A program made the translations under genes and the position numbers. DNA of 64,000 nt from Hypomesus transpacificus (lineage: Eukaryota; Chordata; Actinopteri; Osmeriformes; Osmeridae): assembly GCF_021917145.1 (NCBI RefSeq), contig NC_061061.1, forward strand, positions 15,515,484-15,579,483, written 5' to 3'. Below the pieces are notes generated by a model, which saw only the letters and a program-made list of their open reading frames with translations, ran no database searches and had not been told where the DNA came from. This document shows, in pieces, positions 11,398 to 51,346 of this stretch. Positions within the stretch are counted from its first letter, which is position 1; every line of letters begins with the position of its first letter.

Positions 11398-14300
11398 ATG
11401 ATCACAGTGCTAAGGATGATGATGTTGTTATTGTTGATGATGCTGCAGTTTAAGACTACAGTCTTGAAGGAACTCTGTCCACTGTCTGAGCTGTCCCTAG
11501 ATGGAGACTACCTGCTAGGGGGACTTTTTGAACTCTACGAAAGCAATAATGATTCTGACATTCTGGAGAGTAGCATGCTTGAGATACCCGTGTGCAACAG
11601 GTAAAGACTCTTTTTACTCTACATGTTGATTACCAACCGTAGTGACATTTATTACCAAAGATTTAATTTGATAAATAGTTGTAAATAGTACTTGTGGCAT
11701 TCACGCCATTGCTGAAATTGGTTTTGGCCTTATCCCGGATTTGGAAGGATGGCAGTTTGCACTCCAAACGTATAGTAATTTTATTTTTCAAATCCAAAAT
11801 GGAGGCATCCAAGACCAAATACATAAAAGTCACTTCATCATTGACTTTTTTAATTTTACAATATATTTAAATGTTTTCTCCCAAAACTCCAGCTGGAACC
11901 TCTCTTTAAAGGCCTACCATGAGATGGAGGTGATGCGCTTCACCATGGAGCATATTAACAACTCTTCAGATCTTCTACCGGGGATTAAGTTGGGCTACAG
12001 CATTTTTGACTTCTGTCACACCACAGTGAGCTTCTCTGCCACACTGGATCTGTTGGCACAGAAGGGAGAAGGAGGAAATGGTGTAGGAGGGGCAGTTCCA
12101 GTGTGGGATGGGTCTGTCTATAGCCCGAAAGTCATCTCTGTGATTGGTCCATTATCTAGCACTCAGACCATCAGTGTGGCTCCTTACTTTATGGCCCAGC
12201 TCATTCCCATGGTACTTAGCCTGTAGTGATATAGTTTGACCACACAGCTGTGCTATTGGAATTTTACTTGCCATCGGGTCTAAAGCAGACTTTCTCTTCT
12301 GCAGGTGAACCCTTCGTCTAGTAGTGTCCAGCTGAGCATGAAGTCTCGCTTCCCTTCCTTCTTTCGGACCATCCCCAGTGACAAATACCAGGTCCAGCCT
12401 TTCTCATACCAACACTGAGTGCAGAACTAGTGGATTTGGGGAATATTACTTAATACAAAAGAGTTTGCCCACAAAAGATAGATGCAGGCCCAACTTGGCC
12501 ACGTCTTTGTCTGTAGGTGGTAAAACAGCATTAAAAAGACTTTTTCTGTTGCAGTTTGTGAGATTCAGTCAGTTCATGTGTGGTGTTGTTCCTCAGATGA
12601 AGGCCATAGTGCGCCTGCTGCTGAATTTTGACTGGAACTGGGTGGCATTTCTAGGCGAAGACAATGACTACAGCTACGATGCTCTCGAGGTCTTTCTGGA
12701 GGAGATCAGAGTATCCAGCATTTGCCTGGCCTATCAAAGCACAATCCCTGACAAATCAGTCATGATGTCCAAACTTATCAAAATATTGTCCTTGCAGAGA
12801 ATTAAAGTTGTAGTGGTGGTTGCCACGACGAGTAAAATCGATCGTTTTCTTGAGAAAGCAGCAAAGGAACTGGGAAACGACATGGTGTGGATTGCCAGTG
12901 AAGCCTGGTCTATGGACAGTAGTCGGCTGAGAAAGCTGGCAAAGGTCAAAGTGGGGACAGTGTTGGGGGTCACACTGCAGAGCCCCAAGGGACTGGAGGG
13001 GCTAAATGACTTTATTCTCTCTGGCCGAGCTGTGTCTGACTGTACTCAGCAGGAGCTGGGCTGCAACCAGTTATGTCCTGAATGTGAAGTCATCGGGAGA
13101 GCGGAGGTGGTTAATCAGGACCAAATCTATGACTACGGCATTTATGCTGCCATCTATGCTGTGGCTCATGCCCTGCATGACACGCTCGACTGCAGTCACG
13201 GCCACTGCTCCAGCAACATCACTGTAGAGCCCTACATGGTAACAAAGTGGTTGACCCCTCTGATTTTTTTTTACTCATTTATATTAGTGTATTCTGAAGA
13301 GTCGCTTTACCTGCAGGATGTCCTGATCTATGTCTACCTATTTCTTTCTGTCTACCTACCACAGATCACTGCGGCTCTGAAGAAGGTGAAGTTCCAATTA
13401 TACAACCAGACTATTCAATTTGACCAGAACGGCAATCCTCCTGCCTTGTATAGCATTGTCTATTGGAACTGGACTACTTGCAACCCTGACATTATTGGCT
13501 CATACAATGTCAAACAAAACCCAAGTTTCCAGATTGATGAAAATCTCATCACCTGGTTTGATGGATCAAATAAGGTAACAAATTCTGCTTTGACTGCCGT
13601 TTCTTTTTTGGAATCAATACAATTCAATATCAATATAATCTATCAAACCATAAAATAAACAGTGAAACCAACTTACAGCTATAATGAATCTTAAATGTAC
13701 TATCTTTCACAGTTTCTAGCAGCATTGTGCATAATTTATTTGTATGTGTAAACTTATAAAACTGTAACTATAAACAAAACGTCAGACAAGTAAAGGAGCA
13801 TTTTCATAGCTGAAGAGGTGTGCATTGTTCCTATGTCCTTTTGTCTTCCTCTCCACTCAGGCTCCTGTATTACAGTGTTCCAGTTCTTGTCCACCGGGCA
13901 ACAAAAGGGTATCGGTTGGCTTACAGCCCTGCTGCTACCAGTGCCAGAGCTGCCCAAGTGGAACCTACATCAACAGCACTGGTAGGCCTGATGAATACTA
14001 ACCATTCTGATTTACTCTCGACTACTCAACTAGATTATCACTAATGTGCCCTCAATACTGAGCAGACCCCAGCTACAGCCATGTTAACCATAAGTGTATG
14101 TTCGTGTGTCCACTCAGGGGACCCATACACCTGTGTGGCCTGTCAAGAAAACGAGTGGGCAACAAACAGCAGCACTTCCTGTATCGAACGTTCCGAGACA
14201 TATCTGGATTTCTCCTCGCCGTTCGCCGTCACAATAATGCTACTGTCCAGCTCAGTCCTGCTCAAATCCGTCGCGATCACTGTGCTGTTCCTGTACCATG

Positions 14301-15043
14301 GCAACACGCCGGTAGTGAAGTCAGCGGGGGGCTGGCTGTGTGTGTTTATGTTGGTGTGTCTGACTCTCTCTTCCGTCAGCGCCCTGCTGAACATGGTGCG
14401 CCCGTCTCTGGTGGTCTGCTCTCTCCGCTACCCCATCTTCATAGTCTGCTTCGGCTCTGTACTCTCCTGCCTGACTGTGCGCTCCTTCCAGATCATCTTG
14501 ATCTTCAAGATGGCTGCCAGGCTGCCACGTTTGCACAACGCATGTGTGAGCCATGGGGGGCAGTGGGTTGTCGTGACAACCTGCACCTGTTCCCTCTTCT
14601 TCCTGTGTATCTTCTGGTTGTCTGTCGGCGGTCCCGAGCCCATCAAGACCCCCAAACAAAGTGAATATGTTCTGGACTGCAGCTTCGGGAACATACCAGT
14701 ATTCATCCTGGTGTGTCTGTTGTTAGTCCTACTGACAATAGTGTGTTTCTTATGTGCCTACATGGGCATTGATCTGCCCAAGAACTACAATGAGGGACGC
14801 TCCATAACTTTCAGCCTGTTGCTGTGCATTCTGATGTGGACTGCACTGTTGACAGTGTACATGATGCGTTTGCAAGAAGTCTACCATGCCATCACCACAT
14901 GCGCCATCCTAATCAGCATCTACGCCATTTTGATCGGTTACTTTCTGCCCAAGTGTTACATCATAATCCTTAAACCGGAACGCAACACAGTTGCCCATTT
15001 CCAAACTTCTATACAGAACTATACCATTCAGGGAAGACGATAG
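11398..15043 (+). CDS. T1R-type taste receptor (class C GPCR), T1R2-like
   Basis: Seven coding exons: 11398-11600, 11893-12211, 12305-12391, 12597-13238, 13365-13574, 13861-13981, 14118-15043, giving 835 aa, the usual T1R length. T1Rs are dimeric plasma-membrane receptors for sweet or amino-acid ligands in taste cells. The start is the ATG opening a hydrophobic signal peptide (MITVLRMMMLLLLMML). Then come the T1R hallmark DGDYLLGGLFEL, a Venus-flytrap domain (NFDWNWVAF, DMVWIASEAW), a Cys-rich linker (CSSSCPPG, CCYQCQSCPSG) and seven membrane segments in the last exon (about residues 545-800). The tail PKCYIIILKPERNT followed by QNYT resembles T1R2 most. T1R genes usually have six coding exons; here the usual exon 3 is split by a 205-base phase-0 intron (12392-12596). 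The exact subtype is uncertain because teleosts have several T1R2 copies. Confidence 0.88.
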
Positions 15044-29681: not shown

Positions 29682-32600
29682 CACGTAGCCCCCTCCAGCC
29701 CCTCCCCCTCCTTAAGAACGTCAGAGTCTGCACAGCAGAGACGACGCTCCCAGCGACTTGCGAGCACCCCAGTCGACGCACCCGGCGACCCCACTCCCAG
29801 CCCTGCACACGCCGACAACAGCCCCTCATCCCCCGCCAAAGAGACACGCCCGACAGAGATCGATGCATCTTCTACAGAGGGTAAGCTTCTGCAGCCTACT
29901 AACCCGTCCAAAGGAGAATTCCATACAACAATCTGCCTTATTTCTTATACAAAGAGTGTACAGTAACTCAACACTGTTCACATTTGTTTATCCTCGACTT
30001 GTCAGTATTGTTCTTTAAATTTAAATATCTGGTTCTGTCACAGGTGCAGTTCTGAACTGTGTGGAGAAGTCAGATTCCAGCCTCCATAACTACTGTGCAG
30101 GAATGCCCTCCACACCCACTCCTCCAGCACCAGCCACAGGCCAGAACCAGCTGCCTGGTGGACCCCCCGCCAATCATGCTGGGGAGAAATCTTCGCCACT
30201 AGCAGCAGGTATTGTTAGGCTAGGAAGATTGGCCATTTCTTTACATGATCATGCACCTGCCGGCATCTGTTGAGAACACATCCAACATCTGTGTGTGTGT
30301 GTGTGTTTGCACACTCTCTGTCTTCCAGCTCCCGGTTTGAAGACGGCAACCATCAGGACTCCCAAAATGAACAAACACACCAGAGAGCCAAGTAAGATCA
30401 AAGCGTTAAATACGGTTATTGTTATTACAGTAAATGGCGGTAGCTTGAATTCAGCAATATGTGTAGTCCGTCACACTTTTCACCTGTCTCTCTCTCCAAT
30501 CTAACCTGTCTGACCTTCTGTTCCCCCCCCCAGTCATGAGCACCCTGCGGTCTGAGGACCCCTCATCCCCAGGTGACCTGGACAGCCAATTCCAGTGTCA
30601 GGTGGCCGGTTGCTCAAAAGCCTTCCGCAAAGCCAAGCTTTTGGAATACCACCTCAAATACTACCACAACGCCGACAGAGAGACCCATGACTTTGAGACG
30701 GGTTCCCCGGACAGGGTGGGCCGCACCCGGGCCACGTCCACCTCCCTGCCCCCATCCTCCAACCCCCAGCTGGAGGTCCCTGACAGCAAAAGACGCCGCA
30801 CTGTCTCCTCATCCTCCTGTAAGGCCCATAGCGGCATTATACCGGCACCGTAAATTACACTTGTTATAAAACAAGGGCCTCCCTTCTGTAAAACTGTTTG
30901 TCTTTGTCCCCAGCTCTGTCTCCCCAGGCACAAGCCCTCCAGCTGGACTGTGTCAGAGCCGGCCGGACGGGAAGGAAGAAGCGCTCGTCAGCCTCCATGA
31001 GCTCTGACAGCACTGAGGTGTCCCTTCCTCCCCCGCCCCGTGATAGGAGCCTGGACAACCTCCACGAGAAGATCCTAAAGAAGGTCATCGACAAGGACAA
31101 GTACCCAGAAACAGGTCAGTCTAGCTAGGTCTTTAACCTTCTCTGTCTCCTACCATATAGACACTTATACCCCCTCTCTTCTTGACCAGTATTTTTGTCA
31201 GTTGGTCTGAACCATCCTAGGGATGACATATAGACTAACTATTCTGCTATTGTTTTTTTTTCCAGGGTTCATCAAAACTGAGAAGAAGGTCAAACTGGAG
31301 GAGAAGCCGCAGCAGCTAGGTGAGTTTGTCCTCTTGGTCTGTCTGTTTGTGCCTCTAACTGTGTATCTCACTGTCTCTCAGAGTTACATTAAGTCTCATT
31401 CAGAGCGACTTAAAGTAAGTACAGGGACATTCCCCCGAGGCAAGTAGGGTAAAGTGCCTTGCCCAAGGACACAGTAACTTTGCACGGCCAAGAATCGAAC
31501 CAGCAACCTTCTGATTACTAGCCCGATTCCCTAACCGCTCAGCCACCTGACTCCCTGAGTCGAGAGTTGAGCTGATGAGAACCGATTGTGTTTTCAGGAA
31601 AGAAAAAGGAGAAGGACAGGGAGCGTAGGGACAGGAAGGACAAAGACCTGTTCAAACTCAAACAGAAGAAGAAGAAGAAGAAAAGGAAGAAATCCAAGGA
31701 ACACAGTAAGACAACACAACACTGTCCCTTCCAACACAGTAAGACAACACAACACTGTCCCTTCCAACACAGTAAGACAACACAACACTGTCCCTTCCGA
31801 CACAGTAAGACAACGCAACACTGTCCCTTCCAACACAGTAAGACAACACAACACTGTCCCTTCCAACACAGTAAGACAACACAACACTGTCCCTTCCAAC
31901 ACAGTAAGACAACACAACACTGTCCCTTCCAACACAGTAAGACAACACTGTCCCTTCCCAGTCGTTTTGCCCACATGGCTTCTGTTACATTGACGTGTGT
32001 GTGTTTCCTAGGCTACACGGACTTCGACGGGATGTCGCTCTCCTTCCTAGACAGGTCTTCATCTCCCCTGCATCGTTCTTCTGGCAGCGCGTTCACCTTC
32101 CTCACCTCCTCGTCGCCTTCCTCCTCTAAACACCACCAGTACCCACGCGCCATCCTGTCTGTCGACCTGACCGGAGAGAGTGAGTGATCAACGACAGGCC
32201 CCAAGTCCCTAACTCAACCCCCCCCCCCCCCCCCCCGTTCCATATGCTTCTCACCCTTCTACCTCTGTTCTAATTTGTGTTTGTATGTGTGTCCCCGTGT
32301 GTCCAGACCTGTCGGACGTGGACTACCTAGAGGACTCGACCACAGAGAGCCTGCTGCTGAGTGGGGACGACCTCAGCCAGGAGGACCTGGCCATGGAGGC
32401 CTTCCCTCCTGAGGAGCCGCAGGACAGCCAGGAGATAGTCCGCTGTGTCTGCCAGATGGATGAGGAGAACGGCTTCATGATCCAGGTAACGTACGACCAG
32501 CGCACACCCTGTTTACAATGTGGACACCTCACTAGTTTATACCAAGGAGGATATGTTGGGTAGCCTACATAACTCACCAGAAATAACTTGTTTTTAATTG

Positions 32601-36799: not shown

Positions 36800-39700
36800 T
36801 TAGGCTGTGCAGACCTTCTCTGCAGAAGCATAGATATGATTGGCCATTCCCGTGGAGCCGTAAATGAAATTTGCTGCTGCAGATGAAGTGTTGATGTGAT
36901 TGGTCCGTTCTGTGTGAGTGCTAACTGTGGCAGGGTTGGGCAAAGCCAGGTTCAATAGGTTGGCACAGGTGGGTAGATAGACATGCTGCACCTTGTCCAC
37001 CTCTGAGCGACACACTGGGCACACCTGGGCAGAAGACACAGACTGTTAGAACTGAGCTGCTGTGTTCCAAGAACCTTTACCATGTTATGATATGCTACTA
37101 ATTTCAAACGTGGATCAGTTGTGATTTGAAGCAGCTTGCTCTGATTGACACTTTATACCCAGCAGCTATATGCTAAAAAAAGTCCTTAAAAAGAAATAAG
37201 TTGACTGAAGCCTTCCTTTCAAAGGTTAGTCGTGGAGAGTAAATTAATGTTCCGCAAAGACTACCCCTGCATGGCACTGTGTGCTCACTACATACTATAG
37301 TTCACCAGGTCACTGCAGCTTTAAACTGCCAGTGCACAGACGGCCTGTCTAACCGCCCCCTAAGCTTAAACTTCACGTAAACACCAGATAACCCCTGGGC
37401 CAGAGTCCTCACCTCCAGCTGGGCAGCACAGCTCTGGCAGCAGACCAGGTGGCCACAGGGGCAGAAGGCAGCATCGATCTCTTCCTGACAGCACACCACA
37501 CACAGTAGTGCCTCCCGCAAGCGGAGCACCACCTCCTCCAGGGCCCGGCTCTGCTTGCACCCCTCACACTCCGCGTCCCCTCCGACTTCTGGGCTGGCCG
37601 GGGAGGAGGTCGTCTGAATTCCCCTGTTGGCGTGGTAGAGGACCCGGCGCGCGTGGTCGTAGGCTTCTTTGGCGGTGCGGCTGACATCAAACAAGTACTT
37701 CCGGCCCAGCGGGATGTTGTGGTTGAAGAGGGCCGCAAAGTGGCCGGTGAAGTCACGACTGTACTGCAGCCTTACGTCCTCCCCCACCGTGTCACACCTG
37801 GGAACAAATCACACATCAGACACAAGGAAATCCAGTATGAAAGTGTTGTGCAGCAGGATTGAAGGTGTGAGTTAGCTGTATTGCTTTTATTATTGGGGGG
37901 GGGGCTAACCTGTAGAACGTGTGTGTCTCAGTCAGGGAGCGGTAGAGCCCTCCAGCTGCTCTGCTGCTGACCATCTTGAACAAGAAGATGTCACTTTCTC
38001 CGTTGTCCTTGGCAACAGTCAAATAAACATTCCTTCCTGTCTGGGTGGCTATCTGGACGAGGGAATAGTCAATCCTGGGGAGGAGAGGCAGACAAGAGAA
38101 ACAAGGAAGGAGTCAGCGTTGAACTCATGCCCAGGCAGCATCACATGATTTTTTTTTTTTATTGTTGTTAGTGGTTACCTATTAGTGACACTGAGGTCCT
38201 CTTGGCAGGTGACGATGCCCTCAGGCCCCACACCCACAGATAGCACCTGTCCCTCTGAGTCACGGGCCCGGTGCCACTCCACCCCATAGTGCTCTGCAGA
38301 CGCCACAAGCTGCAGGACAGAATACTCTGCGGAGGCTCGGTTCCTCCCCTCCAGCTGCCTGTGCTTCTCCATGATGCTGTAGGACACATGGAAGAGGAGC
38401 TGTTAAAGTCACACTCGTTCATTTCTTAGTCTCATTGTTTAGCTAGTCTGGAGGGGATGGACAGTCTAAAAAACCTGTTTATAAAACGTATCTTCTGGTC
38501 AACTGTTGGATGTATTTTATTACCTGTTGATGGTAATGTTGTCAGGCTGGTGTCTGAGGAGTTGTTGATAAAGTTGGCTGTACTGGTCTGACGGGGGGCT
38601 CAAGTCTCCGTATTCAACCTGAGCCATCAAGACACACAGCTCCACAGCCTGCTCCTTCACTACCTGCAGACTCCCTGAACACAGCTGCTCCTTCACCTGG
38701 AGGAAGAACAGGTGTCTGGAAGAAAGAGGGAGGGGAGGATGTGATGAGGAGGAGAGGCACCTTCAGACACCTGTGTTCTCTTTATAGTGAAGTGAACAGC
38801 TGTATAAACCTTATCTCTACTGCCCCAATAAGATCACTACTGACTACTAGACCTTGGTCAAGATATGTTACATACAGTTGCAGTATAATTCTATACTCCA
38901 AACGTTTGCTCAATCTTAGCAGTCTCTACAGTGGGTCTGTGAATGTGTCAGTGCAGGCTGTACGATGTTTGAAGACATGGTCACAAACTGTGATGTCAGT
39001 GCGTCAACATGCTCTAGAAGTGCAAACTCAAACTGTTAACTGTTCCTCAACTATGCAGTCCACAAAGGAATAGATGGAAAAAGCCTTCAAATCTCATATT
39101 CCCTTAATTACAAACATTAAACAAACTAAATAAATTAAGAATTAAAGTAAGTACAAAGATAGGAACTAAATTGAATATTTGTGTGTAAATCTTGTTTTGT
39201 CTGCTAGGGCTTATTACACAAAGTTGAGCAGGATACTGTAGTTTACCGTTATAGAACTCAACCACAATAGCCTATAGAATGTCTTTGTGTGCCCTCAACA
39301 ATAGTTACAATAGACCAGTGTGCTAGCCCGTCCAGGCCTCACAAACAGCTCATATCCGCGTTGAGGAGGAGTTGAGGAGAAAAAAGAAGCCCAATTCACC
39401 AAAGTTATTATGTAAGTAGTGCTTTACGTGTCTGTTCAGGCACACCACCTTTTACGTAACAGTACGGACAGAAGGCAGTGTGTCAGCCGCACAGTAGCCT
39501 AAAGCAGTAACCCCATATGCAGACAGTGTTTCAGGAATTTAATACGGACCACAAGTATATGATTTACAACACGCGTATGAACCTAGTCTGATTCTGGAGG
39601 ATCAGATGTGGATCAACCAGAAACTTGACCCGAAGCTCCAGTCGGCATTGGGACAAGCTGTCCAGCTGCTGGCAGACTGGGTTTCTCAGGTTCAGCCATA

Positions 39701-40562: not shown

Positions 40563-43500
40563 ATGTTTGAGAATTTTAAAGAGAGGTTGCAGACCGTGCA
40601 GCAGGATTTCACAACAGGGTTTGTATTTTAAGCCTGCCAATGTGCTGTATATTTTTGTATTTTCAACTAGCTTGTGAGCTATCAGTGTTTTTCCTTAGCT
40701 TTCATTGTGTGAAAACGCCAAGCGAGCGGACAGCTACAGTTATTATACATCGGAGTAGTATATATAGGAGTTTCTAGACTTCTAGTGCACCAGATGAGTG
40801 TGATTTGTGCTCCATGACTCAAGGGTTGTGAAACACCTACGTATCTAGTACAGCGTGGGAAGGGAATCAAATCAAATGCACCCATTGACAATATAGTTAG
40901 CTAGCCACGTTGGCGTGTTAAGAACTCAGCTATTTAATGTTAGACTAGTTATTTAAATGCGACAAACTGATTGTCAAAGACAAGCAGTGACTATGTTAGT
41001 GTACGAACACATGATAAGTATATACTGAATATGGTGCTATTTTCACAGAATGCATCTATATTTAGCTAACCATAACCATTGCTGCTATTGTAGCTAAGCT
41101 AACATTAGCCCTTCATTCTTTGCTAATAACAAGCATCTGACAGTCATGTGATACAGTAGCGACTGCAAGAAACACATTCCTTACCTAAACGTTAACCGCA
41201 GACATGGAAACGATATTGCGCAGATGCTTTGCCACGTTAGAGCTGAATCAGATGACCACTGTTCGGTTTAGACAACACCTCTCAATCACAATTTCTAAAA
41301 TACTAAATCCAATCAAATCCATTTTGCACACTGGCTGTCAGTTATCTGTTAGCATACCACCGGTCCTTACCTCTGAAACGATGTTTGTTCCCTCTCTTTA
41401 GCATAAAGACGCTGGGGGAGAAATCCAAAGATTCCAAAGTAAAGAGGAAACCAAGGTTAGTCTGTCAAACTGTGTACTAAAAGATACGAAATTAGCCTTA
41501 TATAGTCAACTGCCATTAAAACTGTGGGATGTAGACTATGTGTTTTCCAATAGATCAATAGTCTATAGTGTTTTACGAAATCTCTTCGCATCTGTCATTC
41601 CTGCCTTTACAGATATGAGGAACACCTTCCCCAGTTCTCTGCTGGAGTGGAACTGCTTAGTAGGTAGGTGGTCCTGTCACACGTTGGGAGACAATAGTGC
41701 AGTGAAGCAAGAAATTAGATATTTGTCAAATATTTTCCAGGTATGAAGACACATGGGTGGCTCTTCACAGGAGATCTAAGGACTGTGCCAATGCTGGAGA
41801 GGTATGTATCATGCTATATAGCCAGTTGCATTAATGTAAACATGAATTTTTCAGTCTAATTTCCTCTCTTCTCCAACTCTCCAGAGTGTGGATGGGGAGG
41901 TGGTGATGCTGTCGGCTCACTGGGAGAAGAGGAGAGCAGCATTGGTGGACCTAGAGGAGCAGCTGCAGCAGATCCCGGCTTTCCTCTCTGACCTGGAGAG
42001 TATCACATCACGTATCGGTCAGTCTCTCCACTGTCACCTATACAGTGCATGGCTTGGTTGAACTAGTACAGAGGAAGGAAAGGTTATAGATTTTTTTTAC
42101 GAGTATCCATCGATAACTCTTACAGAGCGTGACTTCATAACATCATTGGCCGAGTTTCCCAGATTCGTTAAAAAGCTCCCAACTCTAAGAGCTTCTTAAG
42201 AACGTTCTAAGAGCGTTGTAAAGCGTTCTTAGAACGCTCCAAAGAAGCTCTGAGCGTTAAGATCTTCTGAACGAAAATGAGAAACCCGGTCATTGCCAGT
42301 TATAGATATCCTTCAGGGAAACAGCTTCACTGTGTATGTATGTCCACAGCCCACATGGAAGGGGACTTTGAGGAAATGGAGAGCCGTCTGCTCTACCTGG
42401 AAAACCTCTGTGCCCAGTGTGAGCAGCAGCGCTTCAAACAGCACCACTGCCTGCAGCTGGAGAACTACAAAAAGAAGAAGAGGTATGGGCCTCTAGGTCA
42501 ACAACTGGAACAAAGCTGTGTGTGTGTGTGTGTGTGTCTGACTTCCTCTGCTCCTGTCAAATATGATCTAGGACTTCCATTACATGACCATTCACCATGG
42601 TGTATATTAACTCAGACTGGAGGCATCAAATTTATGTCATAGAGGGTTCCACATCAACGGCCTGTATGTGATGACTTCATATTTACAAATAGAACAGTAT
42701 TTGCACGTAAATAAAAATTGTTAGGTGGTCATGTATTTTTAACAGAAAATTGACAAATAAAAGTTTGTATTACCATAACCTAATGTAACCGAGTTAAATC
42801 ACTCAATTCTCACTTGAAATACTGCCCACCTTTGCCATCGAAAAGCGGTGTTTATGAGAGGTGGTTGTTGCATGAGTAAGGAGTAACTCAAGTTCAAACT
42901 TCAGTGTGGGCGAAAGAGGACGGAATTGACGGACTGACAAATGACACAACAACAAATGTGACACTAATTCTGTCTGTGGTCTCTTCTAGGAAAGAGCTGG
43001 AGGCATTAAAAGGTAAGCCTAAACATTCAATCTATGTGATGTCTCTTGATTCAGACACATCTCTTTTGGTTTGCTGGTAACTGTGCCTCTTATCAGTATA
43101 TCAGACATTAAATTTGTATTTTTGTTGGGGGACAAACACGTTGTATTTTTTAATGAACAACATGTGCCTTGCGTTTCTGGACACCAAAATAAAGACACAA
43201 AGTAAATCATTTTGTGTCAAACTTGGATTTTCCTTCCTTTCCCTTCAGCTGACCTTAACTCTGAGCATGCTCAGAAGGTGTTGGAGATGGAGCACGCCCA
43301 GCAGCAGAAGCTAAAGGAGAGGCAGAAGTTCTTTGAAGAGGCTTTTCAACAGGACATGGAGAAATATCTTTCCTCAGGCTACCTGCAACTCAAGGAGGGA
43401 GGTGAGATCATTAGTTCTGCCACCCTACAGTGTAGCCATAGTATTTAGTTTCTACTCCCATCTAATCCCTCTTTTTGTGTTTGATTTTGTGCACAAGAAC

Positions 43501-44201
43501 CAGCAGGATGCGCCTCACCCACAAAGGTGAATGTTGAGGCGCTAGAGCAAGTGGAGCTAGCAGTCCTGTCAGACCAGGAGGCTCTGGACGTCTTCCTCAA
43601 CTCTGCAGATGACATCATCAGCACCACCTCTTCTCTGACTTCGGGTTAGACCACGCCCACTACCACCACCACCACACCCGCTCCCACCATTTAGCACCTT
43701 GATGTCACAATAGGTGTGTTCGACTTCATGCAGCGCCGGCGCCGCTTGAAGCAGCCAATGGCAGCTTCAGCTTCAATGGCTGTTGGCGTAGCCAGCGCTG
43801 CATGAAGTCGAACATGCCTATTGCTTCCTTGTAGCTCTGCCTCCAAAAACTGTTTTTTAGTTCTGTTACCTCACTTCCATATTCTCCCATTTGCCCCATG
43901 TCTGGATACTGAGAGTTCTGTTTCCCCCACAGGTCCAGATCCTGAGTCCTGGTCATCTGACTTATTCATGAGAGAGGCTGATCCGAGAGAGAGACTTGGC
44001 TCCTCCCTCTGCACCGAGCCATCTATCCAGGAATCAGAGGGGCAGGGTCTTGAGAAGGAGGCCAATGAGGAGAGTGGAGAAGAGCCAATGGTTCAATCAG
44101 ATGAGGAGGAGGTCCAGTTGGACTCTGCACTGGTAGTCCTGCCCGAGCCACTGAAGACTTGTGAAAGCTCCGACAGTGACTCCCAACTGCCACCCGGTTA
44201 A
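40563..44201 (+). CDS. dtnbp1: Dysbindin (dystrobrevin-binding protein 1)
   Basis: Ten exons: 40563-40618, 41402-41455, 41613-41663, 41741-41801, 41885-42017, 42350-42482, 42990-43012, 43249-43401, 43498-43644, 43933-44201, giving 359 aa (human 351). Dysbindin is a coiled-coil subunit of BLOC-1, which sorts cargo to lysosome-related organelles and acts in synaptic vesicle traffic. Seen: [16 protein letters not shown], a coiled-coil core with [20 protein letters not shown], then [13 protein letters not shown] and [20 protein letters not shown], followed by [20 protein letters not shown]. The dysbindin box [14 protein letters not shown] and an acidic tail with [14 protein letters not shown] complete it. 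Two small inverted-repeat elements sit in its introns. The poly(A) signal is at 44506-44511. Its position between mylip and jarid2 is conserved with mammals. Confidence 0.95.
42149..42289. mobile_element. 141-bp palindromic MITE in dtnbp1 intron 5
   Basis: The ends are imperfect inverted repeats (CCGAGTTTCCCAGATTCGTT versus CCGGGTTTCTCATTTTCGTT on the other strand). The interior alternates AAGAACGTTCTAAGAGCGTT and its complement, so the whole can fold into a hairpin. A perfect 6-bp direct repeat TCATTG flanks it (42143-42148 and 42290-42295). No coding capacity. Similar GGGTTTCCCAGATTCGTTAA sequences are, from memory, common in teleosts. Confidence 0.7.
43708..43823. mobile_element. 116-bp palindromic MITE in dtnbp1 intron 9
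   Basis: Arms of about 30 bases are nearly perfect inverted repeats: left CAATAGGTGTGTTCGACTTC then ATGCAGCGC, right GCGCTGCATGAAGTCGAACA then TGCCTATTG. The spacer includes a second nested inverted repeat around AGCCAATGGCAG and TCAATGGCTG. No coding capacity. The duplication is unclear; a 2-base TA is possible. Superfamily not assigned. Confidence 0.7.
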
Positions 44202-45352
44202 CAACAACAGTAACCCTCCAAGATCTGCCCCTGGGGGTAACTACTAACTAAACCCTGGATCTCCCTAAGTTAACAGCTGGCCTCCACAACTACCTAAAAC
44301 ACTTTTGGGGTACTACTATGGAGCCCGGCTCTGTGATTCAACTGTAGGGTTTGTCTTTAGAAGAGAGGGAGGTTAGGGCAACAATAATCACTGTGTATGA
44401 GCGCTTACGCTTTCTCTTCCTTGACAACAAATCAGTTGTTTTGTACAATCTGCAGTATTCCATGAAGAGTTGTCAAATTACTGTTGGAGATTTATAAGAG
44501 ATGTTAATAAAGTAGTTCAAGGTTAATCTGTGCTGATTTCCATTTTGGATTCCTTGCTTTTTCTTGTTTTACTACTAAAGCAATTTTTTTGCAATAAGAC
44601 TGCATTTGCGTATGTATTCTGGGACAGGGAAAATCTGCTTTGTACAACAGACAAGTTTGTAAACGTTTATTTTAACAACAGTCATTGGCCGTCAGGGAAA
44701 TGGGGAACAGAGCCAAAGCCAATGAAACAGGCAGCTATAAAAGACTATCCTATCAAAGACAACAGAACCATCTTGACCAATGAACAGTCTGCTAACTGTG
44801 TTTCATCACCAGTGTTAAGGAGCAAGAGCAAAAATGTTATTTTAATTTGCATTATCCAGCACAAGCTAGCTCTGAAGTCATCTATTCTAGTCTTACCTGG
44901 ATTTCCTACAGTCAGAGGACTTCAGTTGAATTGCTTCAAACCAGTATTTAGCTGTCTATACTCAGGTATGATAATACAAATTCTACAGTGCATACTGAAA
45001 ACACAGACCTACAAGAGTTACAGATTTTTGTTATTAAACAAAATATTAGCACCAGAAGTGAAACAGACATGTTTAACAGACCTCCATACACCAGACCACA
45101 AAAGGAATGCCTCTCGTCACCTTCATGTCCTCTCAATCGAAAGTCTGAGACAAGTACATTTTTGATTTAAGCTAGGATCCAAAAAGTTGAGCACCAAGTT
45201 GTTGAGCACCACAATAATAGGCTTGTTGACTCTCATACATAGTAGATAATATTGGAAGATATTGTAATTCAGTATCTTTACAATTAACAGTAGTCAAAAC
45301 AGTAGAAAACATCTATTTTAATGTTAGTGCAAACAGGTTCTAAGGAGCTTCT
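44202..45352. terminator. Convergent 3' ends of dtnbp1 and the jarid2-like gene
   Basis: dtnbp1 has AATAAA at 44506-44511 on the plus strand. The jarid2-like gene has AATAAA on the minus strand (plus-strand TTTATT at 44666-44671). Each gene therefore has its own poly(A) signal, and the jarid2-like transcript can end without reading into dtnbp1. I see no reading frame resembling ARID or JmjC here; the open frame at 44530-45165 on the plus strand has no domain. Confidence 0.6.
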
Positions 45353-48300
45353 TCATCCCTGGCTGGACTGTGCTTGTCGAGTCAGCGTGGACTCACCAGT
45401 TTGTCTTTGTCCGGAAGCAGGTTTGGACTGGACTGCTCCAACATGGCGACTGGTTACAACACTGTCCCGACCAACTTTTCCAACATGGTTCAGTGTCCTG
45501 CTGCGGGTCTGTGGGCCGCTTACCTGAAGTCTGACCTCCATGACCTCAGGGGCGGAGTCTGTCTCTGCTGGGAGGCCACGCCTTCTCCTGGACTGTCTTA
45601 AGCTCTCGTTGCTCTGCTGGACACCTTCCTGCACATGTAGGTGTCTGATTTTCTGCCCTCTGGCTACCTGTATGGGTACAACTACCTGTTTGGATGTCTT
45701 TGCGATGCAGCTGGGGTTCTTTCCTGAGTTGGTGTGGGGAGAACAGCGACGGGAAGCCACGTGACAATGGGTGGACTTGGGGCAACAGGGGTTTCGATGG
45801 GGGAGGCGAGAGGTGGAGTGTTTGGAGCGCCTGGAGTTTGAATGCCTTCTGCGAGGGGAGAGCTTGGTCTTTTGGACCCGTCTGGGTTTGTTTAGGTTTA
45901 GACAACTCCTGGAGGGCGGGGCTGGGCTCTTTACGGGTGGGGATGGCAAACTGGAGGAGGGTGGGACTGATGACCTGTGGGGAGGGGCTGCTGTTTTGAT
46001 GGGTGGCACTGAAGACCTGGCAGCTCTAGGTGGAAGCAAGCGGAGAGGGGAAGTCTGATTTCTTAAGGAAGTGCGAGTTGATGACGTGATCCCTGAGAGC
46101 CCAGTCACCATGGAAACCTGTTTAATACAAACACATAGCTATCACCATGGAAACCTGTCTCAGTCAAACAATTAACAGTTGTACTTTAGTGTAGCCTAAG
46201 TATTTTTTGACCTTGCAAATACCTGCTCTTACAACAAAGCCTACAAGACAGTTTCACTGTGCATTAACGTTTATTCTTGAACAAAAACGGCATAATATAT
46301 CAGCTTGGAGTAAGTTATGATATAATTTATAATAATGTTATCGCCAAACCTGAGGTGGCTGCTGGGAGACCCTGGGGTAGTGGATGTGGTTTGGGGCTGA
46401 GGCCCTGGCTGGGAGGATGGGAAGGCCCATGGTTGTGGAAGTTATCTCCATCCTGTCTGCCCCATGCACATTCTCTCCTGGCCTGGGTGATCCTCTTGGC
46501 TCTCTCCCTCTCAAACACCTGCCATGGCTGTGCAACACTGCAGGACAACACAAAGTCATTACATTACATAAATCCACAGCAATCTTTGTATCTGAAATTG
46601 GGTTAGTTTAATAAGTATATTGGATAGTGTGCATGTGCATTACCTGCACTGTTGGACATTTTCTTCCCTTGACGTCTGCTACTCTTATTTGTCACCAGAC
46701 AGGAATCAGAGTTCTGACTGACAGCAGTTCTGTCCTTGGGATCTTCCTCTTGAATATCAGAATCATCCTGGACACTCCCTAAGTTTGCCATGTTTCCAGG
46801 CAATGCTACTGTGCCTGCAAGAGGTGAGACACATGTTCAAACCGAGTGTGTGTTTGTGTGTCTGTGTGTGTGTGTGCGCACCGGTGTCCTATGAGAGGTG
46901 AGACAAACCTCGTAAGCAGAGGAAAGAGAGGAAGTCCTCAGTCTTTGGAGGCCTGTGATTTAGCATCTCAGAGGACAAGGCGACAGTAACAATGTCTGGG
47001 GGGGCGGTCTTCAGGGGGGTGGAGCTGGGAGAACTGGGCTGAGACTGGGCAAACTTCCTCTGCACCTGCACCCGGGGCCTGTCCAGGCACAACATTCAGA
47101 ATGACAAACGGACAGAGAGAGAGAATAAAGGAAGAAGACAGTTATGAACCGTGTCAGCTGTGGAGATGAGGTCATGCACAAACCAAAATCAGACACGCCA
47201 CTCCTCCACCAATAGATACACAAAGCTCTCAGCAAACACTACACACGCCCATTTTAACAGCTGTCAGAATATATGAACAATTCTTATCAAATAGACAGTT
47301 GGCAGACTGAGCAACAGATATTTGCTGAATATTTGTGTGTGCATGTGATGGTTGGCTCTGAATGCTAAAGTACTGCCAGAGAGGGCAGCCGGTGGGCAGC
47401 AGGAAGACAGAGTGTGTCCTCTCACCCACCCAACACCACCTGTCCTCTCTCTTTCCCTCCCTCCCTCTGTTTCTCTCTTCAACACACACACACACACGCA
47501 GACAAACTTCTTTTTGTATGGGTTGTCTTCCCGGGCCTCCTTGTTGCCATGCTGGTTTTGTGAGAAGCGTCGTGAACGGTTAGTTCGACTGTTCGTGGTC
47601 TGACCCCCCTTTGGTGTTGACCGGAGACCATGGCCTTTAGCGGAGGAACCTGCAGATCAGGAAATAGGTTGGTTAAGAATAGCATCTGTTACTTCAAGCT
47701 TAACTTCAAAGCTTCAAAACTATTTAATTTAATTTTCAGCATTAAAACTAAACGGTCATTCTGAGGCTTTGGGTGGTCTCCCCAAGTAATTTACTGTTGT
47801 ACAGTATTGTTATATTAATAACCAAACAATAGAATACAATCAATCATGACAATAAATCATAAACGCCCTCAAGCAAAAAGTGACCACTTACCAACACATA
47901 GCCTACATGGAAGTTCACTCACCCCTTGATACGGCCAGACTGTGGAGGCTCTGCTGACCGCTTCGGAACTCCCGCAAAGACAGGAAGAGAACCTTCCGTA
48001 CCACCCGCTCCTCACACCATGGCATCCCCTCACTGTCATCCTGCAGAGGACAGTGAGGGTTAATCACTGACACAAACACATGTGCACACACACATGCACA
48101 TTTCACAGCCAGGGTTATTGCCAATGAATTACATTATACCGTTTCTGGGGATCTGTCATGTCAAACACATTTGATGCTGAGATTTGGAAGCTGTGAAAGA
48201 TGTACAGTATTATGACGAGTAATCCATAGTACCCTACTGTAAATCATTTTTTGCCAACGATTAGGCAGACTTGACAAATATAATTGTTATTATAATAAGG

Positions 48301-48363
48301 TACCAAAGGACTACTTACGTATTTCTTTTTTATGATGTTCCTTTTGGGTCTATCTGTGCTCAT
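45353..48363 (-). CDS. jarid2: C-terminally shortened JARID2-like PRC2 adaptor
   Basis: Seven exons on the minus strand: 48319-48363, 47923-48040, 47508-47649, 46909-47078, 46644-46814, 46350-46537, 45353-46117, giving 532 aa with every splice phase consistent. JARID2 recruits and stimulates Polycomb complex PRC2. Conserved: the N-terminus [15 protein letters not shown], the ubiquitin-interacting segment ([20 protein letters not shown]), the EED-binding lysine motif [13 protein letters not shown] (human K116 region), and the SUZ12-contact segment [14 protein letters not shown]. Exons 6-7 are basic and Ser/Pro-rich and align only loosely with the large central JARID2 exon ([11 protein letters not shown]). 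The frame then stops; the JmjN, ARID, JmjC and zinc-finger parts of the roughly 1250-residue family protein are absent from here to dtnbp1. Its place beside dtnbp1 and mylip matches the mammalian jarid2 locus, so it is the orthologous position, probably a duplicate copy after the teleost genome duplication. Confidence 0.85.
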
Positions 48364-49714
48364 TGTGTAAACCTATTTGAAGGTGCTACCGACACATTTA
48401 CGTTCTGTTTTCTAGGACCATGCAAATCCTGTGGTCCAGACAACCCGCTTCTGGACTCTCCCTCCCCTGCAGAAGAAATCGACGGCAAGAAACACAGATT
48501 CTGCCACCGGTAACGACCACGACGCTGAAGCATAAATACATTAATGAACCCGTCTATATAGTAATGTTCTAAGAGTGTTGTGGCTACTCAATCGTTGATG
48601 CAGCGATCCAACCAAGACATTTGGGATCCAACACGTAAGGGCCCTGCAGCTTGTGTTAAATTATACTCGCGGAGCGGAATGTACAAATTATGTCCACCAA
48701 AGAAAAAAAGAAATGTCAATATTTCAACTGTAACATATCAGAACTCCTCGCCACGTTAGTATGCTAATAACGGCGTGGTTCTCTCCGTTGAGAGAAAACC
48801 GGGGCAAATACCCCAGCGGCCGATCGAGGTATATTGTATGTGTAAGGGACCGGGTGTAAGTACAAGTGTCGATAACAGACGTGAGCAAGGAGTTGATACG
48901 ACAGTGATAACAAAATCGGGCGCGAGGGGGTGACAGAGAGCAGAGAATGAAAAACTATATTGTGTTTAATGTGTGTCAGTGTGGTCTAGGAGGAGGGGAC
49001 ATAGCCTACCTCGTAACAGATTTATTTGTATGTTTTACTTAGATGTTTATTATGTAGAATGTAACACTATTATGCTATAATTGCAGGAAAATCATACACA
49101 ATATATGATGATGAATCCATAATATTATGAGAACTAATTATGAGAACCAAACTCCACAAGTTGATCCAAAGTTATGTGAAGACGAACGTTTGCCTTGCTC
49201 ACCGCATGTACACTCTGTTGATTATTATAGATGGGCGCGTTTTAAGACCTTGCTTGCTGGAATGGTAGTCGATTAACTGTGTCTAGATGCAAAATGTTGT
49301 TTTTGACATGCAGAGTACGGATTCAGCTACAGACACGGAAACGCTTTGTATCGCAACTGGTAAATACCATCATGTATTTATAAACGAGTAATGTATGACA
49401 TACTTACACTGCACTTCAGATAGCGAAATACAGTATGCGGGTAGGGTTTAAGAAAATCCCTTCTCCGAAGTAGGCTTGCAAGGAGTTAACAGTTGATCGT
49501 GGGCTACCCTAGTGTGTTCCTACAGCACTATTTGTTACAGAGAAGTATATATTATGTCTGTATAATTACTAGTCAAAGACTATAGACCTACAAGACAAGT
49601 GCACTTAAATATCGGCTATATGAGTTGAGCTGGACAGCCTTTCAACCACGTCGCCTTTTTTTTTTTTTACAATTAAATATCAGGCTGTGTTCCACTGTTG
49701 AAGCTTGTATTTCT
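48364..49714. promoter_or_regulatory. Divergent 5' flank, jarid2-like (-) and dehydrogenase (+)
   Basis: 1.35 kb between two start codons pointing away from each other. It holds both leaders and promoters. A polypyrimidine tract and AG at 49660-49683 look like a 3' splice site, so the dehydrogenase has an upstream non-coding exon. CG-rich patches (about 48650-48930) could be the promoter. No other gene is recognised; the open frame at 48271-48513 is on the wrong strand for jarid2. Confidence 0.5.
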
Positions 49715-50804
49715 ATGGGCCAGGTGAGAATGGAGAAACCATGTATCTTGGCCACCTCCCTAGGAGCATCAGGAGGGATATACCGCTGCTTTGCTCCCAT
49801 CATCCAGGAGCACTTCACAATCATCTCTCACGATGAGTTCCTTAAAGACCAGAAGACGTTTGCAGATAAATTGAAGGCAGTGTTTGTCTGGGGGGCAGCC
49901 TTGAAAGTGGACAAAAACCTGCTGCAGTCTCTACCAAACCTGAAGGTGGTTGTAAATGGAGGGGTGGGAGTGGATCATTTAGACATTCCTATGATCAACA
50001 GCTATGGGGTGAAAGTATGCAACACACCCCATGTGGTTGACAATGCCACTGCAGACCTGGGCATGGGCCTAATGCTTGCATCTGCAAGGAAAATCTTGGA
50101 AGGTCACCAGTTCACAATGAGCCACGAGACAGATCTTCTCCCAGAGAGCTCATTGGGGGCCGATGTAAGCGGAGCCACACTTGGTATTGTAGGAATGGGT
50201 AGAATCGGATACAAGGTGGCCAAGAGGGCTTACGGCTTTGACATGAAGATCTTCTACCACAACAGGAACCGCAGGTACACAGCTGCTACCCCCAGGGCTC
50301 TCCAGCCAGTGTTAAAGGTTTAATCTATTTCTCTTCTTCAAGTTATGTTAAGTTTCTAAGAAAAGTAACAGGATGGTGCAAGCCGTCACTCTGTTCATAA
50401 ATGTGTTAACTGTGTTTGTATTCCTATTATAAAGTTCAGAGGTTGTTACCTTGTTTAATCATTTATTTGCCCAAGCCAGAGTGGAAGTGGGTATGAGTAG
50501 GGGTTCATCTGTTAGAATCATGACACTGACAGCCTGTCTGTAATATACTGTATGTGCCTTGACTTGATGATGAAGCGGTTGTTGATATGAAGTGTGTGTT
50601 TTTGTGTTCATGTTTGAAGGCCAGAGGAGGAAGAGAGAGTGGTTGGGGCCACCTACTGCCCCATCCTGGAGGATCTGCTACGTAGGTCAGACTTTGTCAT
50701 GGTGGTGGTGAACCTGTCTCCTCAAACACGTGGTCTAATAGGAGCCAAGGAGCTGGCCATGATGAAGCCTACCAGCACATTGATCAACATCAGCAGAGGT
50801 ACCA

Positions 50805-50837
<33 letters not shown>

Positions 50838-51346
50838 AGACAGTTATTATTTCTATCAATAATTGTGTGTGTTTGGCAGGGCACGTTGTGGACCAAGAGG
50901 CCTTGGTGGAGGCCCTACAAAGAAAGGGGATCAGAGCAGCTGCGTTGGACGTCACGTACCCTGAACCCCTACCCATGTAAGATTGACCTACCTTATGCTC
51001 CGTTCACACCAAGCGCAAAGCAAATTGTTTGCGTGTATGAGGCAAATTTGCGTGTTTGCATTGACTTTACATGTAATCTCGACGCGCGAATAATTCGCTT
51101 TGCGTTTGTGTGTGAACGCGGCATTATCCTTACCTGGGCCTGTCCTGGTTGTGAGTGGATGCTGGTCTGAGTCTGTGCTGTCTCCCCTCCAGAGGCCATC
51201 CCCTGGCAGCCCTCCCCAACGTGATCATCCTGCCCCACTTGGGCACCCACACACTGGAAACCAGTGGCATCATGGTCCAGAGAATGGTGACCAACGCCCT
51301 AGCAGGACTGTCAGGGACCACACCACCTGATGAGGTCAAAGCTTAG
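49715..51346 (+). CDS. D-2-hydroxyacid dehydrogenase, glyoxylate/2-ketogluconate reductase-like
   Basis: Four exons: 49715-50274, 50620-50798, 50880-50976, 51193-51346, giving 329 aa. It belongs to the NAD(P)-dependent D-isomer 2-hydroxyacid dehydrogenases (GRHPR family), which reduce glyoxylate, hydroxypyruvate or related keto acids in the cytosol. Seen: the substrate loop VVNGGVGVDHLDIP, the dimer-arm motif NATADLGMGLMLA, the Rossmann dinucleotide site TLGIVGMGRIGYKVAKRAYG, catalytic Arg in TLINISRG, catalytic Glu in DVTYPEPLP and catalytic His in ILPHLGTHT. It differs from mammalian GRHPR in many positions and resembles the fish proteins annotated as probable 2-ketogluconate reductase, so the substrate is uncertain. 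A start at the internal ATG 49730 (MEKPCILATSLG) is equally plausible. The third intron holds an inverted-repeat element. Confidence 0.88.
50994..51126. mobile_element. Short inverted-repeat element in the dehydrogenase gene
   Basis: Left end TGCTCCGTTCACACCAAGCG and right end TGCCGCGTTCACACACAAAC (read on the minus strand) are imperfect inverted repeats of about 26 bases. The interior carries TTTGCGTGT and CGCGCGAATAATTCG. GCGTTCACACC-ended elements are, from memory, widespread in teleosts. A TTA flanks both ends and may be the target duplication. It starts 17 bases after the exon 3 donor. Confidence 0.65.

Follow-up and report, generated by a model that had tools for sequence, protein, structure and literature searches.

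A smelt JARID2 gene without its C-terminal half represents a form common to many teleost fishes

The window analysed here is a 64,000-nucleotide stretch of the genome of the smelt Hypomesus transpacificus (contig NC_061061.1, forward-strand positions 15,515,484 to 15,579,483), and the gene in question is a relative of JARID2 (Jumonji), a subunit of the Polycomb repressive complex 2 (PRC2) form PRC2.2. The gene encodes the N-terminal half of JARID2 and ends there. Judged by protein comparisons, this truncated gene is an old form common to many teleosts and not the private loss of one genome, and it is the only JARID2 detected in the 437-Mb assembly. We think it rather probable that it is a functional teleost JARID2 gene, presumably the jarid2a ohnolog, whose C-terminal exons were removed in a shared ancestor and whose product would serve PRC2.2 as a cofactor without the DNA-binding half. 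Papers are cited by PMC number and for the available parts of their text.

Seven minus-strand exons (48363-45353, stop codon included; Table 1) join into an open frame of 532 codons; read in the two alternative frames, the joined 1612 nucleotides contain 22 and 16 stops, and all six introns are of the GT-AG type. An original prediction made from the window's letters had proposed this seven-exon frame, and it is corroborated by the Osmerus eperlanus entry 'protein Jumonji-like' (P0001), which is likewise 532 amino acids (aa) long, 93% identical and gapless from first to last residue, through every exon junction. Residues 1-237 of the product match residues 1-245 of the best-matching JARID2 chain (E 5.8e-50), and residues 1-241 match residues 1-254 of a human JARID2 construct (E 1.8e-48). 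Three putative assignments follow from alignment with JARID2, that is, from sequence: an N-terminal ubiquitin-interaction motif (UIM) region (E25, E26, S36 and E39 are each conserved in at least 90% of 55 truncated proteins), an EED site, where K110 of QRKFAQSQP aligns with human K116 by hand-counted numbering, and a SUZ12 segment, where 15 of 19 residues, counted on the alignment, are identical to human 147-165, a fragment named as SUZ12-binding (PMC12669776). The alignment to human JARID2 bears out the proposal that the parts predicted to contact ubiquitinated H2AK119, EED and SUZ12 are kept.

The remainder of JARID2 is missing. The product has no Pfam domain at E <= 0.01 and hence no JmjN, ARID, JmjC or C5HC2 zinc finger, whereas each of five full-length fish JARID2 proteins shows these four domains in a Pfam scan. 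C-terminal exons hidden elsewhere in the window were considered and rejected: four canonical proteins with ARID and/or JmjC (P0005, P0009, P0010, P0030), used as tblastn queries, gave, past residue 443, nothing better than E 0.8 in the 64 kb. Both results agree with the domain losses as first described. The alignment with full-length JARID2 stops near QRPKRASAGK, at about the same place as a donor-like CTG/GTGAGT in exon 7 (45397/45396). This site lies 14 codons ahead of the stop and suggests that the last residues of the product are read through from a former intron. The gene has its own stop and an AATAAA signal before dtnbp1, as had also been claimed.

Three queries, namely the window protein, a profile built from deep-branching relatives and a trout JARID2, together yielded 243 proteins. 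Derived N-terminal motifs occur in 97 of them, and 95 of these 97 have no match to the C-terminal half of JARID2, the exceptions being two full-length eel proteins. Five fragments (P0221, P0222, P0223, P0227, P0243) stand outside the resulting split into 95 truncated and 143 other proteins. Since the 95 were chosen by their N-terminal motifs, counts of those motifs among them are circular, but K110, the SRR(R/K/M)RGLPPD motif described below and the missing domains were not selection criteria. JmjN, ARID, JmjC and C5HC2 were found in none of 55 truncated proteins scanned against Pfam, the scan returning two unrelated single-member matches near E 0.009. An artefact of length filtering (the first search admitted proteins of up to about 931 aa) was rejected as an explanation: with a 922-aa profile and candidates of up to about 1600 aa, 95 of 97 still lacked the C-terminal half.

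The truncated proteins span Osmeriformes, Galaxiiformes (Aplochiton), gadids and percomorphs, the order of the gadid and percomorph rows being our assumption from the names in the protein records. Most are labelled 'uncharacterized protein' or 'protein Jumonji-like' in the databases, and one is labelled jarid2a (Clinocottus, P0058); a tilapia protein (P0050) is also of the truncated type. A tree was built from 49 rows and 134 columns (53 rows were chosen; three without the segment and one without QRK were dropped); in it, a branch with support 99/98 separates the 17 truncated rows from all others, the full-length proteins of the same genera included. Going by names, the truncated and the full-length protein occur together in at least 22 percomorph species. 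Salmonids, pike and Umbra had no truncated-type protein among the matches listed. NCBI places Galaxiiformes with Protacanthopterygii, so the date of the truncation hinges on the resolution of that part of the fish tree. A loss peculiar to the Hypomesus genome, as the original prediction implied, must be corrected in view of the 95 such proteins from smelts, galaxiids, gadids and percomorphs. Truncated JARID2 entries are already in the databases, without description, and the open-access literature that was searched held no account of a truncated teleost JARID2. A further short motif, TR(T/S)SPR, in most cases formed by the last residues, is found in 75 of the 97 motif-defined proteins, which come from percomorphs, gadids and, in one case, a galaxiid-like sequence; both smelt proteins are without it, and it was absent from the three frames downstream of exon 7 when these were read by eye.

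The two smelt proteins differ at 39 of 532 residues, with 2 of 94 differing in motifs versus 37 of 438 elsewhere (Fisher p 0.019, motif limits picked by us). A broader comparison used 17 of the 22 species with both forms, five being dropped as partial or deleted models. Mean pairwise identity of the truncated form was 0.974 in the N-terminus/UIM, 0.926 at the EED site, 0.943 at the SUZ12 site and 0.906 in the SRR(R/K/M)RGLPPD motif versus 0.561 elsewhere; the full-length form of the same species gave 0.994, 1.0, 0.969 and 1.0 for these segments versus 0.837 for the rest before JmjN. Among the 71 rows that retain both the N-terminal start and the SUZ12 site, 69 carry QRKF, and the two exceptions are gadid models. 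By these sequence comparisons, the PRC2-facing segments are constrained and the linkers are free to change. The earlier view of the frame as selected and not decaying holds up, given the equal length of the Osmerus protein, the open frames in relatives and the constraint on the motifs.

In the history that we propose, exons for JmjN, ARID, JmjC and the C5HC2 finger would once have lain between exon 7 and dtnbp1 and have been deleted in an ancestor common to osmeriform, galaxiid, gadid and percomorph fishes, with translation now ending shortly after what was the donor of exon 7. The product would be a largely disordered adaptor. Its SUZ12 site would place it in PRC2.2, K110 could be methylated by PRC2 and then be bound by EED, and the N-terminal UIM would read H2AK119ub1. 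Such a protein would recruit and support PRC2 without JARID2's DNA-binding half, and in the smelt it may act alone. The closest experimental counterpart comes from mouse Jarid2, for which the available text of PMC5133711 describes N-terminal fragments, with or without JmjN, that fully restored H3K27me3 at H2AK119u1 chromatin, and an N-terminus with UIM that restored Xist-dependent PRC2 recruitment; recombinant Jarid2 1-530 bound H2AK119u1 nucleosomes at 2.8 uM, and a fragment 542-1234 did not bind PRC2.

The original prediction had also offered a competitive inhibitor. Such a competitor or buffer would occupy SUZ12 and EED, limit full-length JARID2 or PRC2.1 subunits and lower targeted PRC2 activity, a role compatible with binding sites that are kept, a DNA-binding half that is gone and the presence of both forms in percomorphs. 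We regard it as the weaker reading and as unlikely, since the comparable mouse fragments restore H3K27me3 and do not block it (PMC5133711), no full-length JARID2 was detected in the smelt genome, and conservation of the UIM region, which SUZ12 occupancy does not require, is no weaker than that of the SUZ12 site (0.974 versus 0.943). Since the mouse fragments are active and the searches turned up no full-length JARID2 as a possible rival, the product is most likely a working PRC2.2 cofactor rather than an inhibitor, with its expression, binding and activity predicted from the analysis.

Several observations weigh against the cofactor reading. The fast linkers (0.561 versus 0.837 in full-length JARID2) would also fit relaxed constraint, and three of the six donors, those of exons 3, 4 and 6, are weak (GTTTG). 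Both features could mark a decaying pseudogene, yet frames are open in smelt, galaxiid, gadid and percomorph relatives and the motifs are constrained; the Osmerus protein and the conserved clade leave this explanation hardly any probability. The gadid models P0087 and P0091 are without the EED-site stretch and Gadus morhua X1 (P0220) has QRKF, which suggests a site that is alternatively spliced or differently modelled. In mouse, the preference of 1-530 for H2AK119u1 over unmodified nucleosomes was only about twofold, and K116A was without effect on rescue (PMC5133711), so that the EED-site step is less certain and may matter little. When JARID2 is cleaved in human keratinocytes, its N-terminal part is not seen and was considered unstable, according to the available part of PMC6356158. 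The AlphaFold2 model of the product is poor (mean pLDDT 48.7, 10 residues above 70, pTM 0.22); with low confidence it places a helix at 23-48 and a short helix at 153-156 in an otherwise disordered chain, and supports little beyond disorder. Expression of the gene in Hypomesus is a prediction from its sequence, and jarid2a is its probable and not its settled identity: the union of the truncated clade with the second copies of eel and catfish was not rejected (p-AU 0.476), and the 49-row tree does not show that grouping.

One segment sets the truncated form apart. SRR(R/K/M)RGLPPD or a close variant occurs in 91 of the 95 truncated proteins and in none of the 143 others; the same position in canonical JARID2 mostly reads LRNSKRRLE or similar, and the four truncated proteins without the motif are short models (404-536 aa). 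By eye, the motif resembles the RRKQxxP motifs of NuRD (PMC11602157) and the AEBP2 segment KNKRRRSLPRP, whose letters were checked. It could serve a new role by binding a new partner such as RBBP4/7, in NuRD or as free RBBP4, and so link PRC2 or chromatin to another complex. The distribution of the motif and this likeness speak for such a role, which we nevertheless judge to be quite improbable. PDB searches with two 27-aa pieces around the motif gave no match, and basic motifs are common. In the available text of PMC11602157, moreover, ZNF512B needs K where most members here have R, the internal consensus wants K or R two residues after P where the motif has D, and the RBBP4 pocket is blocked within PRC2.

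The assembly searched for a full-length JARID2 has 376 contigs totalling 437 Mb, the window being part of contig 2, and its completeness is not stated. A 318-aa query spanning JmjN, ARID and part of JmjC of canonical fish JARID2 gave five matches at 38-53% identity (best 36 bits), all of which look kdm5-like from where they lie and how similar they are; an exon of a fish JARID2 would be expected, at 80% identity, to score higher. The canonical N-terminal 200 residues and zinc finger gave two matches, both exons of the window locus. A JmjN family search found 8 sites which, by their neighbouring JmjC sites, appear to belong to four kdm5-like and four kdm4-like genes, and a JmjC search gave 30 matches; none of the 24 loci compared around them (L001-L008, L015-L030) was JARID2-like, the best reaching 41% identity. 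The Osmerus protein matched only the window locus in the assembly, although this query may be too distant for a canonical N-terminus. With trout JARID2, no named osmerid was in the best 120 of 460 protein matches, among which percomorph proteins at 52% identity were listed; six further full-length rows from this search group with carps and gobies.

The original prediction had called the gene a paralogue and had raised the matter of a second, full-length jarid2. Kinship with JARID2 stands, the searches found no full-length copy in this genome, and it is in percomorph species that the two forms occur side by side. The smelt may have no JARID2 other than the truncated gene; it is also possible that the assembly is missing a stretch with a full-length one. 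An assembly or gene-model error, with C-terminal exons misplaced, collapsed or lying in an unassembled gap, would accord with the unstated completeness and with the end of dtnbp1 only about 1.1 kb downstream. We consider such an error very improbable, as the Osmerus eperlanus protein is the same to the last residue, 95 proteins of other fishes are without the same half, and the C-terminal query, run against 437 Mb, picked up kdm5-like exons at 38-53% identity but no JARID2-like locus. More tentatively than the cofactor function itself, we suggest that full-length JARID2 was lost in smelts, leaving PRC2.2 with the N-terminal half alone, and that relatives keep both forms, the half-length one with a new partner motif.

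Relative to JARID2, the truncated gene shares the UIM region, the methylatable-lysine site, the SUZ12 site, the pre-JmjN linker and the convergence with dysbindin, and differs by the absence of JmjN, ARID, JmjC and C5HC2, by derived residues and by the new motif. Truncated jarid2 transcripts are also reported from the bearded dragon, to go by a title among the references of PMC9602145, presumably as an RNA-level event. The mouse constructs (1-530 and fragments before 542; PMC5133711) have nearly the same extent as the fish protein and were sufficient in cells for PRC2 recruitment and H3K27me3 at H2AK119ub1 chromatin; they are artificial, whereas in fish the gene is fixed in such a form. The cleaved human form delta-N-JARID2 (about 554-1246; PMC6356158) is divided at about the same boundary and is the complementary half, which retains the jumonji domains, shows no PRC2 binding and promotes differentiation genes. 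PALI1, EPOP and AEBP2 are, like the fish protein, PRC2 adaptors with disordered parts, and PALI1 also offers a methylated EED-binding site (PMC8864842, PMC12669776); they differ in their sites and subcomplexes, and no homology to the fish protein is indicated, although no search aimed at it was made.

According to the available part of a review (PMC8864842), the JARID2 JmjC has no known demethylase activity and no known function, and ARID seems minor. The role of the C-terminal half is thus unsettled, and in several fish orders evolution has parted the two halves, leaving a gene with the PRC2 half alone. A smelt without a detectable full-length copy would test the need for the other half and, if the absence is true, would be a natural experiment: an animal living without JARID2's JmjN, ARID, JmjC and zinc finger. 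In many fishes, the gene named 'jarid2a' may encode something other than a DNA-binding jumonji protein. The sea bass gene of that name, described as DNA-binding, is reported to be upregulated in gonads after heat (PMC4560065), and a truncated-type protein recorded for sea bass (P0093, 660 aa) may or may not be the product of the gene assayed there.

The position of the gene bears on its origin. It is convergent with dtnbp1 (dysbindin), tail to tail, in the orientation that we presume for the human pair, and a RING exon of what we take to be a mylip-like gene lies beyond dtnbp1 as seen from it; a locus convergent with DTNBP1 and beside MYLIP is that of JARID2. Zebrafish jarid2a, dtnbp1a, mylip and atxn1b are syntenic with human JARID2, DTNBP1, MYLIP and ATXN1 (PMC8583371). 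Because synteny with dtnbp1 and mylip is retained, the gene appears to sit in its ancestral neighbourhood, with the missing part corresponding to the stretch from exon 7 to dtnbp1, and the simplest history would be a deletion of the downstream exons that left translation ending in a former intron.

Table 1 Features of the JARID2-type gene and its neighbours (window positions)
Feature	Position	Strand	Evidence or remark
Exon 1	48319..48363	-	start codon; aligned to JARID2 1-15; donor GTAAGT
Exon 2	47923..48040	-	UIM region by alignment; equivalent of mouse aa 24-40, placement per PMC5133711
Exon 3	47508..47649	-	variable linker; weak donor GTTTGT; ungapped versus Osmerus eperlanus protein
Exon 4	46909..47078	-	putative EED-binding site, K110 (human K116 equivalent), and putative SUZ12-binding site
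Exon 5	46644..46814	-	acidic linker
Exon 6	46350..46537	-	linker
Exon 7	45353..46117	-	basic pre-JmjN linker; conserved motif at residues 454-464; stop codon 45355-45353
Consensus 5' splice site GTGAGT in exon 7	45391..45396	-	candidate ancestral donor toward lost C-terminal exons
AATAAA polyadenylation signal	44666..44671	-	sequence
dtnbp1 (dysbindin) 3' exons	42349..44201 (start approximate)	+	PF04440 E 4.5e-36 on joined exon translations; stop ends at 44201
mylip-like exons, syntenic marker	37302..38112	-	RING, zf-C3HC4_3 E 2.6e-8 in 37305-37808; no Pfam match in 37816-38112

Between 37302 and 63016, an adnp-like gene (ADNP_N E 2.6e-35) and C2H2 genes adjoin mylip, dtnbp1 and jarid2. We take these last three to be a group of human 6p22 and the adnp-like and C2H2 genes to belong to human 20q, and a synteny break directly upstream of jarid2 is possible. 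A D-2-hydroxyacid dehydrogenase gene (49586-50980, plus strand; 2-Hacid_dh E 1.7e-17) opens just over 1.2 kb upstream of the jarid2 start codon, and the two genes may share a bidirectional promoter. Farther away, a 33-base tandem repeat of 7.5 copies, 98% matching (31700-31948), would encode an 11-residue repeat within an open frame at 31579-32187 that we presume to be PHF20-like, and a class C G-protein-coupled receptor domain (7tm_3, E 1.6e-48), V2R-like by appearance, lies at 14045-15043.
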